This document shows, piece after piece, positions 2,731 to 54,510 of a DNA stretch of 64,000 nucleotides. Position numbers and translations under genes: made by a program. The stretch's first letter is position 1, and every line of letters starts with the position of its first letter. This stretch comes from Terriglobia bacterium (GTDB lineage: Bacteria; Acidobacteriota; Terriglobia; UBA7540): assembly GCA_020072655.1 (NCBI GenBank), contig JAIQGH010000011.1, forward strand, positions 10,364 to 74,363, read 5' to 3'. The notes beneath the pieces are model-generated. The model worked only from the letters and a program-made list of their open reading frames with translations. It was not told the origin of the DNA and searched no databases.

Positions 2731-2733
2731 TCG

Positions 2734-2761
2734 CCGGACTCGCGACTCGGGACTCGGGAAA
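2734..2761. repeat. Seven-base tandem repeat array, left arm of cassette 1
   Basis: Four consecutive heptads: CCGGACT, CGCGACT, CGGGACT, CGGGAAA. Their reverse complement matches the array at 3165-3227, so the two form the arms of an inverted repeat around the four-helix-bundle gene. The array starts 3 bp after the eno stop codon. Confidence 0.85.
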
Positions 2762-2786
2762 GGACAAAAGGCGAACCCAGCGGGGG

Positions 2787-3152
2787 ATGATCACGGTGAA
2801 GGACTATAAAGAATTGGAGGTCTGGCAGAAAGCCGTAGACTTGGCTACGTCCCTTTATGAAGTGACAAGAGGTTTTCCGGATACTGAGAAATTCGGACTG
2901 GTCGTACAAGTCAGGAGAGCTGCCACCTCGGTGCCTGCCAACATTGCCGAGGGGTGGGGGCGTGGATCGACGAGAGAGTATGTCCAGTTCTTGCACGTGG
3001 CCAGGGGATCTCTGCTGGAACTGGAAACTCATCTAATCATCGCGCAGAAGCTGGCCTACCTAAGCCGAGAGCGATCGGAAGTGGCCCATCAACAAGTCAA
3101 AAGCATTAGCATGATGCTGAATCGGCTGATCGGAGCGCTGAGGGCTCGTTAG
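2787..3152 (+). CDS. Four-helix-bundle protein (23S rRNA intervening-sequence / S23 family), cassette 1
   Basis: A 121-residue protein of the family first known as the ORF inside intervening sequences of some bacterial 23S rRNA genes, and related to Avd of diversity-generating retroelements. Biochemical function is unknown. The family pattern is clear: DYKELEVWQKAVDLA, then RRAATSVPANIAEGWGR and LLELETHLIIAQKL. ATG 2787 was chosen because homology starts at ITVKDYKELEVW and GGGGG lies just upstream; the in-frame codons before it run through the repeat array. It is enclosed by inverted heptad arrays (2734-2761 and 3165-3227). A paralogue lies at 25393-25776 in the same kind of setting. It is not linked to rRNA here. 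Confidence 0.92.
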   Translation: MITVKDYKELEVWQKAVDLATSLYEVTRGFPDTEKFGLVVQVRRAATSVPANIAEGWGRGSTREYVQFLHVARGSLLELETHLIIAQKLAYLSRERSEVAHQQVKSISMMLNRLIGALRAR

Positions 3153-3164
3153 CCTAACCCGACA

Positions 3165-3227
3165 GGCGAGTCCTCTCTCCCGAGCCCCCAGTCGCGAGTC
3201 CCGAGCCCCGAATCCCGAGTTCCGGCC
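3165..3227. repeat. Seven-base tandem repeat array, right arm of cassette 1
   Basis: Nine consecutive heptads, including GGCGAGT, CCCGAGC, CGCGAGT, CCCGAAT and CCCGAGT. It is inverted relative to 2734-2761. A 22-bp stretch (3190-3211) recurs exactly at 15273-15294, linking this locus to the large array region there. Confidence 0.85.
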
Positions 3228-3291
3228 CCTCTGACAGCCTCGGGACCTCCTTCCGCATCAAAGAAAAATGCGAGCCAGGAGCGGGGAACTT

Positions 3292-5484: not shown

Positions 5485-6387
5485 TTGACCACAGCGATCC
5501 GAGTCCGCGCCTTCGCCAAAATCAATCTCGGCCTGAAGATTCTTGCCCGCCGGCCAGACGGCTACCATGAAATCCGAACGCTCTACCAGGCGGTTTCGCT
5601 AGCCGACTGCCTGGAAATCCTCCTCTCATCGCGGGGGCGCGGCATCCATTTGGAATGCGATGACCCGGCGATCCCCGCGGGGCGCGCGAACCTGGTCTGC
5701 CAGGCGGGCGCGCTGTGGAAACGGGCTCGGCAGTTTCGCGGGGGCATTGAAATCCGGCTCTCTAAACGCATCCCCGCCGGTTCCGGCCTGGGCGGCGCGA
5801 GCAGCGATGCCGCCGCCACCTTGCTGGGCCTCGAGCGGCTCACCGGCGACCGCCTGGGCCTTGCGGAGCGGTTTCGCCTGGCATCCCGCTTGGGATCGGA
5901 TGTGCCCTTTTTTCTCTGGGGAGGCCGCGCCCTGGGAATCGGACGAGGCGAAGAGGTCTATCCCCTCTGGGACCTTCCCCGCCGCCATTGTCTGATCGTG
6001 TTTCCCGGTTTTGCCGTCTCGACGCAGGAAGCGTATGGCGAATTGGATCGCCGCCGGCGATTGACAGAATCTCCGCGAAACCCTAGAATAGCTCTGTTTG
6101 GCGCGCGGTCACATTTTTCCCTAGAAGATTGGGGACCGGCCGAAAACGACTTCGAGCAAGTGGTTTTCGCGAGGTGGCCGAAGCTGGCGCGCATGAAGCG
6201 TCAGCTCATCCGGGCCGGAGCCGAGACAGCCTCTCTGACGGGCAGTGGTTCAGCGGTATTTGCCCTCTTTCGCTCCGCCCGCACTCTGGCCCGCGCCGCA
6301 AGTTTGATCCCTCGAGGTTGGAAGCAGTACCCGACACGGACGCTTTCCCGACTCGAGTACCTGACTGCAGTGACGAGCGAAAAGTGA
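5485..6387 (+). CDS. ispE: 4-diphosphocytidyl-2-C-methyl-D-erythritol kinase
   Basis: GHMP-family kinase phosphorylating CDP-methylerythritol in the non-mevalonate isoprenoid pathway. It begins at a TTG codon; the translation TAIRVRAFAKINLGLKI carries the conserved AKINLGL start of the family. The ATP-binding glycine-rich motif IPAGSGLGGASSDAAAT lies near residue 95, and the C-terminal GSGSAVFALF motif is present. Length (300 residues) is normal. The last codons and the TGA stop lie inside a seven-base repeat array (GTGACGA units), so the extreme C-terminus (TSEK) is repeat-encoded and was probably altered by the array's arrival. Confidence 0.93.
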   Translation: MTTAIRVRAFAKINLGLKILARRPDGYHEIRTLYQAVSLADCLEILLSSRGRGIHLECDDPAIPAGRANLVCQAGALWKRARQFRGGIEIRLSKRIPAGSGLGGASSDAAATLLGLERLTGDRLGLAERFRLASRLGSDVPFFLWGGRALGIGRGEEVYPLWDLPRRHCLIVFPGFAVSTQEAYGELDRRRRLTESPRNPRIALFGARSHFSLEDWGPAENDFEQVVFARWPKLARMKRQLIRAGAETASLTGSGSAVFALFRSARTLARAASLIPRGWKQYPTRTLSRLEYLTAVTSEK

Positions 6388-6456
6388 CGAGTGACGAGCA
6401 GGACGTGGTCGGTTGATGCTTGCTCGTCACTTGTCACTCATCACTTGTCACTGTTC
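6370..6456. repeat. Empty heptad inverted repeat / hairpin on the ispE stop codon
   Basis: The left arm has GTGACGA units from 6370 to about 6404; the right arm has GCTCGTC, ACTTGTC, ACTCATC, ACTTGTC from 6422 to 6456. Bases 6384-6400 can pair with 6421-6437 (17 positions, one G-T) across a 20-nt loop. It lies between the last codons of ispE and the first base of tRNA-Gln, and contains no gene. It could also act as an RNA processing or termination hairpin. Confidence 0.8.
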
Positions 6457-14780: not shown

Positions 14781-15302
14781 GGTAGACGGTAGACGGCATA
14801 TGGGGAAAGGCCGAACCCCAGCGCGTGCTTGACGGATCTGGACAAGAATGCTAGGCTAGGAATGCCAGGATTCAGGTATCAGGATTCAGGATTCAGGGGC
14901 CAGGACTCAGGAATCAGCATTCAGGATTTAGGATTCAGGGCGACACAACCAGATTGAGGAAACGAACCCAAGATGTGCTTTAGAATCAGTGCAGGTGCAA
15001 GAAAAACGAACCCAAAACGAAGCCACCAGGGGCAGGGTTTGGGGGTTAGGGACTAGGGATTAGGGGATCAGACACAAGGGGCTAGGTGCTGGGGACTGGA
15101 GAACAGGGATTAGGGGATAGGGACTGGGGAGTCGAAGAGCAGGTGCTGGGTGCTGGGGGCTAGGTGCTAGGGACTGGAGAACAGGGATTAGGGGATAGGG
15201 ACTGGGGATTAGGTAGAGACCCAGACACCGAATCCCGACTCCCGAGTGGCGACTCCCGACGCCCGACTGGCGAGTCGCGAGTCCCGAGCCCCGAGTCCCG
15301 GC
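14781..15302. repeat. Large composite block of degenerate seven-base tandem repeats
   Basis: About 520 bp with no gene, made of several distinct heptad families: GGTAGAC (14781-14801), GGATTCA-type (about 14865-14940), GGGATTA / GGTGCTG / GGGACTG (about 15035-15212) and CCCGACT / CCCGAGT / GGCGAGT (about 15233-15302). Inside the third part a segment of about 50 bp is repeated 78 bp apart (15093 and 15171). The last part shares 22 bp exactly (15273-15294) with the right arm of cassette 1. The 95 bp between 14941 and 15035 show no pattern. Confidence 0.85.
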
Positions 15303-25325: not shown

Positions 25326-25367
25326 GGTGCTGGGTGCTGGGAACTGGATGCAGGAAACTCAGCACCC
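25326..25367. repeat. Seven-base tandem repeat array, left arm of cassette 2
   Basis: Heptads GGTGCTG, GGTGCTG, GGAACTG, GATGCAG, GAAACTC, AGCACCC. The reverse complement matches 25782-25812. The arm also folds on itself (GGGTGCTG against CAGCACCC). It starts 3 bp after the kdgK stop. The same heptads (GGTGCTG, GGGACTG) recur in the block at 15.1 kb. Confidence 0.85.
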
Positions 25368-25392: not shown

Positions 25393-25776
25393 ATGGGTGG
25401 GAGACGACCCATCAAATCTCATCGTGACCTCGAAGTCTGGCAGGAGGCAATGAAGCTCGCCGAGATCTGTTATCAACAGACGGGCAGCTTCCCGGCGCGA
25501 GAGGCTTATGGGTTGACGAGCCAGATTCGTCGAGCAGCAGTCTCGATACCTTCCAACATTGCCGAAGGGCACGCTCGCCGAAGCCTTGCCGCTTTTTTGA
25601 ACCACCTCTCCATCGCGCTGGGATCGCAGGCGGAATTGGAGACTCAGATCGAGTTGTGTTGCCGCCTGAAGCTGCTCCCTGCCTCATCCGCTGAGGACAT
25701 TTTGACGAAAGCTGGGCAGGTCGGCCGCATGCTGCATGCTCTCACTCAATCGTTAGAGAAATCCGGCCGATGTTGA
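25393..25776 (+). CDS. Four-helix-bundle protein (23S rRNA intervening-sequence / S23 family), cassette 2
   Basis: 127 residues from ATG 25393, preceded by AAGGGGGGAAAC, a strong binding site. It is a paralogue of the protein at 2787-3152: SHRDLEVWQEAMKLAEICYQ, IRRAAVSIPSNIAEGHAR and GSQAELETQIELCCRL line up with the same family positions, but overall identity by eye is well under half. So the two cassettes are not recent copies of each other. The function of the family is unknown. It is bounded by inverted heptad arrays and inserted between kdgK and eda. Confidence 0.92.
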   Translation: MGGRRPIKSHRDLEVWQEAMKLAEICYQQTGSFPAREAYGLTSQIRRAAVSIPSNIAEGHARRSLAAFLNHLSIALGSQAELETQIELCCRLKLLPASSAEDILTKAGQVGRMLHALTQSLEKSGRC

Positions 25777-25781
25777 CGCTG

Positions 25782-25812
25782 CCCAGTACCCAGCACCCAG
25801 AACCCAGCACCT
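25782..25812. repeat. Seven-base tandem repeat array, right arm of cassette 2
   Basis: Heptads CCCAGTA, CCCAGCA, CCCAGAA, CCCAGCA, then CC. Inverted to 25326-25367. It ends immediately before the GAGGAGGG ribosome binding site of eda, so the arm pairs right up to the eda leader. Confidence 0.85.
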
Positions 25813-54431: not shown

Positions 54432-54510
54432 CGAAACTGGAAACTGGAAAATCGAAACTCGAAGAGCGGCAGTCCTACGCTTTCAACTCTCGACTCCTCG
54501 ACTCTTCCCC
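54432..54510. repeat. Empty heptad inverted repeat upstream of dinB
   Basis: Left arm heptads CGAAACT, GGAAACT, GGAAAAT, CGAAACT, CGAAGAG (54432-54466); right arm TCAACTC, TCGACTC, CTCGACT, CTTCCCC (54483-54510). Only 16 bp lie between. It contains no gene. Confidence 0.75.

Follow-up and report, generated by a model that had tools for sequence, protein, structure and literature searches.

Why should a small gene lie between two mirror-image arrays of a degenerate seven-base repeat, in the gap between eno and a TPR gene? The original prediction read this locus (cassette 1) as a gene of the 23S rRNA intervening-sequence family, placed in a loop closed by inverted arms, the arms themselves being made up of short tandem units, and suggested that the whole might be excised from mRNA. 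In the window, by which we mean the complete 64-kb stretch of DNA that was analyzed, the layout is borne out: the positions given for heptads and gene are exact, and the arms are reverse complementary far beyond chance (Table 1). The left arm reads CCGGACT CGCGACT CGGGACT CGGGAAA. The best inverted pair, 27 nt long with 89% complementarity, joins 2736-2762 to 3175-3201, and pairing is also seen in several further registers.

Table 1. Repeat arms, S23/IVP genes and gene-less arrays in the window (G numbers denote individual genomes)
Feature	Position	Strand	Description
Left arm, cassette 1	2734..2761	.	Four degenerate heptads, unit GGACTCG, 3 bp past the eno stop (2730)
S23/IVP four-helix-bundle gene, cassette 1	2787..3152	+	ATG at 2787, stop at 3152; 121 aa; PF05635, TIGR02436; AlphaFold2 pLDDT 97
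Right arm, cassette 1	3165..3227	.	Nine degenerate heptads, CCCGAGT, reverse complement of left unit
Cassette 1, entire	2731..3232	+	Eno-TPR gap of same-genus G001 and of G017 has neither gene nor arms
Gene-less heptad hairpin	6369..6452	.	AGTGACG / 24-nt loop / CTCGTCA, immediately before a tRNA gene
Cluster of gene-less heptad arrays, partly inverted	14866..15300	.	CAGGATT, GGGATTA, GGGACTA, CCGAGTC
Left arm, cassette 2	25326..25347	.	Unit GGTGCTG
S23/IVP gene, cassette 2	25393..25776	+	
Right arm, cassette 2	25782..25811	.	CCCAGCA, reverse complement of left unit; cassette 2 present in G001, absent in G003, G009, G017
Gene-less heptad array	54433..54504	.	GAAACTC, then a degenerate inverse arm

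The family assignment holds as well. The cassette 1 protein matches PF05635 (23S_rRNA_IVP) with an E-value of 6.5e-38 and 129.6 bits against a cut-off of 33.8, and TIGR02436 with 121.8 bits against a cut-off of 24. Its AlphaFold2 model is a four-helix bundle that superimposes on 2GSC (XCC0516 of Xanthomonas) with a TM-score of 0.91 at 0.7 Å; the next nearest structures are 2RLD and then 4DWL, which is Avd, an accessory protein of diversity-generating retroelements (DGRs), and the Avd chains of the DGR ribonucleoprotein 8UB7 are also close. A match to the NCBIfam Avd profile is weak (7.7e-08) and falls under that profile's cut-off. Profile searches gave no Y1 transposase match for the S23 protein, and no transposase or nuclease was found encoded in the cassette. 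A known anti-phage defence system was considered and rejected, as PADLOC returned no match. A further 36 relatives of S23 are located on contigs classed as viral, among them L154, L156, L171, and L172.

Arrays with this period are far from confined to the two cassettes. In the window, nine period-7 segments scored at least 11, compared with 0.1 in order-2 Markov sequence; periods of 4-6, 8, and 10-12 gave 0-1 segments and a period of 9 gave three. Chance, or a general bias towards short periods, was rejected as an explanation, with period 7 (and its multiple, 14) standing out and a smaller excess at 8. Across sampled stretches of the source genome amounting to 390 kb there are 86 period-7 arrays (score of at least 10), the majority of them without S23. 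Matched inverted pairs in these stretches have mainly gene-less loops of up to ~100 nt, or loops of 368-483 nt, all of which hold S23. When loops of 250-700 nt are taken together, S23 is inside 13 of 15; the other two are a pair of separate hairpins flanking a gene and a 254-nt loop with a non-coding dispersed repeat. Candidates for another gene in a loop were rejected: loops of 235 and 254 nt contain a different dispersed repeat, and a 506-nt 'loop' spans the gap between two hairpins beside a pilin-like gene. No unrelated gene enclosed by a single matched pair was found in the 390 kb.

Some further arrays in the source genome deserve mention. Just beyond the upstream end of the window, ~3.2 kb from cassette 1 and on the opposite strand, lies a third S23 cassette (L049:9348-9880, G000:C170), with arms GGACTAG/TCCCTAA. 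Two heptad hairpins, L048:12165-12447 and L053:13764-14069, have loops that hold a non-S23 dispersed repeat with the core TGTCATTCTGAGCGAAGCGAAGAATC... Hairpins of the unit AGTGACG are common (6369-6452 in the window, L048:12165, L054:2905, L063:1548); this unit is found at none of the 17 resident S23 genes and is carried by S23 of G005, G020, and G023.

The architecture is general within the family. Inverted arrays with reverse complementary units flank both sides of 16 of the 17 S23 genes in the source genome, the sole exception being L010, which has a left array and no right arm. The units vary among these cassettes (GACTCGG/CCCGAGT, GGTGCTG/CCCAGCA, GAAACTA/CCAGTTT, ATTCTGA/ATTCAGA, GGATTTT/AATCCAA, and others) and in L015-L017 they are octads. 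For a wider comparison, 124 loci were assembled, drawn partly from 30 related genomes and partly from a scan over more than 20 phyla, the scan supplying most of the loci outside Acidobacteriota, and each left flank was scored against the reverse complement of each right flank. The median score was 20 within cassettes compared with 10 between them, and in 61 loci the best-scoring of the 124 right arms was the locus's own, where about one would be expected. Scores reached the 98th percentile of between-cassette values in 88 of 124 loci, with 36 below that threshold. The repeat period is mostly 7, with 8 in some Bacteroidota and others and 9 in a Saprospiraceae. Ten plasmid copies (nine cyanobacterial, one from Gemmatimonadota) have units that include AGTAGGG, AACAGGG, and AGGTGAC; in eight of them the own right arm ranked best or second of the ten, and some occupy the gaps nrdB/nrdA, cmr2/cmr3, and cas6/cas4. 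The S23 cassette of X. vasicola has GGGAATC arms. As a control, the six Y1_Tnp genes of the source genome were inspected and none has such arms. There is no rRNA in the window or around the 20 S23 loci that were checked, and Rfam found only one tRNA in the window. Most members of the family are therefore armed, and in the 390 kb of the source genome no unrelated gene turned up inside a matched pair, so that neither of the two outcomes that would have told against the original prediction was seen. On the flanks compared here, a small orphan gene is almost always, across bacteria, located between mirror-image arrays, which links the protein to a class of repeats that has lacked an explanation. 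Separately, purines predominate in the 5' arm of 72 of the 88 cassettes and, because the arms are inverted, this is so on both strands.

The sequence of the unit is informative about what travels with what. Among 126 heptad cassettes, the mean distance between units rises from 0.41 substitutions at protein distances below 0.3 to 3.4 above 0.7 (Mantel p=0.001). Distantly related S23 genes have units that differ by 3.4 bases within the source genome and by 3.4 between genomes. Where closely related S23 genes come from different genomes, their units are 1.5 bases apart, compared with 3.4 for distant pairs sharing a genome (p=4e-15). For example, GGACTCG is common to L003 of the source genome and to L033 from another genus, and AGTGACG is common to three genomes. 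Judged by these distances, the arm unit goes with the S23 lineage and not with the host genome. Furthermore, the gene-less arrays of the source genome are closer to the units of resident S23 genes than to those of S23 genes in other genomes (p=0.0005).

The number of arrays also follows the number of S23 genes. A survey covered 28 genomes and avoided the surroundings of listed S23 genes; in it, array density correlated with S23 count with a rho of 0.73, and of 0.85 within the family, neither value being corrected for phylogeny. Genomes with no S23 had 3 arrays in 209 kb, those with 1-3 copies had 2 in 238 kb, and those with at least seven had 56 in 275 kb. An independent test in Xanthomonadaceae agreed with this: at least 20 GKGAWTS arrays were present in 35 of 54 genomes with S23 versus 8 of 65 without (p=3e-9, again not corrected for phylogeny). 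With an identity cut-off of 60% that was picked post hoc on data already seen, 24 of 25 genomes with an S23 resembling that of X. vasicola carry GKGAWTS arrays, compared with 6 of 23 genomes in which only other S23 genes were examined; two of those six possess a second S23 copy. The known GGGAATC-type repeats of this family are thus found mostly where one particular S23 lineage is present. Some observations run counter to a system in which S23 and arrays belong together, namely the eight S23-less Xanthomonadaceae genomes with at least 20 arrays, for which S23 loss or assembly gaps are possible, and the AGTGACG hairpins of the source genome, which are present without an S23 of that unit.

These distributions bear on a reading in which the hairpins arise by polymerase slippage or other host processes, and an independent S23 gene uses their loops as safe insertion sites, as in the helices of 23S rRNA. 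Other repeats too occupy hairpin loops, the excess of heptamers has been attributed to slippage (PMC4692102), and rRNA intervening sequences are located in helix loops (PMC4990558). Hairpins made independently of S23 would not, however, be expected to be almost missing from genomes that lack the gene, or to have a unit that tracks S23 lineage across genomes, and we consider this explanation unlikely. The eno-TPR gap is a further difficulty for it: in the same-genus genome G001, whose eno is 94% identical, and in G017, the site has no arrays at all.

Orthologous gaps of this kind indicate how sites are occupied over time. Behind eno, G022 carries an S23 cassette built on another unit; in G013 and G023 the sequence there looks, by eye, like a gene-less hairpin. 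At the site of cassette 2, G000 and G001 have the cassette itself, G003 has nested gene-less hairpins, G009 has a hairpin of octads, and G017 has little. With orthologous gaps empty or variously filled, it follows that the spaces past stop codons have been occupied more than once and independently. Neither a transposition event nor a target-site duplication of the kind left by an insertion sequence or MITE was observed, and the boundaries are too diverged for a duplication to show.

This turnover is relevant for the suggestion that S23 is an RNA-binding regulator, with heptad hairpins in untranslated regions as its selected targets and the arms of its own cassette as an autoregulatory site. 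Such a role would fit the placement of hairpins directly behind stop codons and between genes, the transcription of the Xanthomonas repeats (PMC4692102), and the Avd-like fold, relatives of which act in a ribonucleoprotein. It is harder to reconcile with the same intergenic gap holding different hairpins in related genomes, and with up to 17-23 S23 copies per genome, whose units differ from each other in the genome that was examined. The base-pairing of the arms, described below, also provides no sign of it. A regulator with dispersed targets thus appears quite unlikely.

The arms were predicted to pair as RNA in most of 22 cassettes, and also in cassette 1, and the question becomes whether pairing in a transcript is what the arms exist for. 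In the intervening-sequence interpretation they pair in mRNA and RNase III cuts the stem, so that the S23 cassette is removed or freed in the way of its counterparts in 23S rRNA. A precedent exists in Coxiella, where the 23S intervening sequence has a 28-bp stem, its S23 ORF is preceded by three GACAGAT heptamers in tandem, and RNase III cuts at the first repeat (PMC4990558). The upstream gene is, moreover, more often co-directional with S23 where the call is unambiguous (9 versus 2). Selection on one RNA strand should leave an excess of G-U over A-C among arm mismatches, and none was seen (146 versus 171, p=0.18); RNA-level selection on the arms was rejected on this basis, and the absence of bias speaks against excision from mRNA as it does against an RNA-binding regulator. 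Variants of the unit are not in the same order in the two arms (p=0.07), and with this test not significant, arms as exact copies produced by recent palindrome correction were likewise rejected. A purely RNA-level constraint and recent copying between arms are therefore both unsupported. Folded as one RNA, the entire cassette 1 gains no stability over shuffled sequences (z -0.99), so strong overall structure was also rejected, and in Nostoc edaphicum an S23 copy lies between nrdB and nrdA, antisense to both.

Taken as an account of the locus, the intervening-sequence interpretation is right about family, loop layout, pairable arms, and generality. It is too narrow in that it leaves the gene-less hairpins, their genome-wide tracking of S23 copy number, and the coupling of unit to lineage unaccounted for, and these point towards a dispersed element system more than towards an mRNA intervening sequence. 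Because the arms can pair as RNA, RNase III might still process the transcript, and we regard such processing as the reason for the arms to be very unlikely.

The reading that we prefer, and hold to be somewhat more probable than not, is that S23 and the inverted tandem-repeat hairpins form a dispersed element system of two parts, in which the cassette is the coding member and S23 recognizes its own unit. One part would be a hairpin made of two inverted arrays of 7-bp units (8 or 9 bp in other lineages) and inserted past stop codons or elsewhere between genes; the other would be the S23/IVP protein, whose gene occupies the loop in a subset of the hairpins. S23 is a four-helix bundle that forms pentamers and has the fold of Avd. 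It may recognize, in nucleic acid, the repeat unit that belongs to its lineage, and this recognition would allow both the cassette that encodes it and gene-less hairpins with that unit to spread or persist within a genome. The sequences themselves show the architecture, its generality, the coupling of unit to lineage, the link between array load and S23, and the empty and filled sites; binding of the unit, action in trans, and the mechanism of mobility we infer. Two familiar routes of mobilization were considered and rejected: a reverse transcriptase, with no PF00078 match in the source genome, and a RAYT/Y1 transposase, the six copies of which are unarmed as noted above. The combination of S23 with its repeats suggests a new kind of mobile element. 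A bolder version, which we offer tentatively and rate a little below an even chance, makes S23 the dedicated protein of a bacteria-wide class of mobile elements with inverted tandem arrays of a 7-9 bp unit. In this version S23 would recognize its own unit and disperse gene-less hairpins with no classical transposase involved, and the cyanobacterial STRRs, the Xanthomonas GGGAATC repeats, and the 23S rRNA intervening sequences would all be products of the one system.

Several known systems share some of these properties. As in the 23S rRNA intervening sequences of Leptospira and Coxiella, an S23-family ORF lies in the loop of an inverted-repeat stem; in contrast to them, cassette 1 is behind a protein gene and outside 23S rRNA, the arms are degenerate tandem arrays, and there are many copies per genome along with gene-less hairpins. 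Given the tandem heptamers before the S23 ORF in Coxiella and the RNase III cut at the first of them, rRNA intervening sequences may belong to this class, as a member that has inserted into rRNA. The REPIN/RAYT system of REP doublets and their tyrosine transposase (PMC3116915) is similar in having a gene between inverted short repeats that are also dispersed as gene-less hairpins, and in a link of repeat type and load to the associated gene, which here is a correlation only. It differs in that S23 is a four-helix bundle lacking an HUH/Y1 motif, the arms here are tandem 7-, 8-, or 9-mers, and Y1_Tnp genes of the source genome are without them. The fold is shared with Avd; DGRs have a reverse transcriptase, for which no match was found in the source genome.

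Heptamers dispersed throughout genomes have been described before: GGGAATC in Xanthomonas and GGGGAYT in Nostoc, often inverted (PMC4692102), and the STRR of Calothrix and TAACTGA of Beggiatoaceae (PMC4679880). As of 2015, what they do in Xanthomonas and Nostoc still awaited explanation (PMC4692102). The arrays described here resemble them as intergenic 7-bp tandem arrays, often inverted and numerous in each genome, and differ in having S23 in the loop and in the S23 lineage predicting the unit. A term search of both papers found no mention of S23 or intervening sequences. In the open-access literature, with subscription papers outside the search, we found no earlier report that ties S23 to genome-wide heptamers. 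The link would join two orphans. One is a widespread protein family whose structure is solved (2GSC) and for which no function is known; the other is the group of heptamer repeats that Xanthomonas, Nostoc, and other bacteria carry. If the link is correct, a general element exists of which the intervening sequences of rRNA are one special case, as does a REPIN-like dispersal system that is based on a non-transposase protein. The link predicts that the repeat unit can be foretold from the S23 lineage, and that turnover of the repeats stops on loss of S23.

Two observations concern the neighbours of particular cassettes. IVP genes appear in published lists of CRISPR-associated genes (PMC3936711, PMC10910872), and the cyanobacterial plasmid cassettes L323 and L324 are those found in the cas6/cas4 and cmr2/cmr3 gaps; chance insertion among cas/cmr genes could explain the listing of 23S_rRNA_IVP. 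In L290 and L292 of Xanthomonadaceae, the frame immediately upstream of S23 resembles the end of AccB, the biotin carrier protein (IIEAMKMFNPIEAD), and one S23 lineage in this family seems, from these flanks, to be fixed behind accB.
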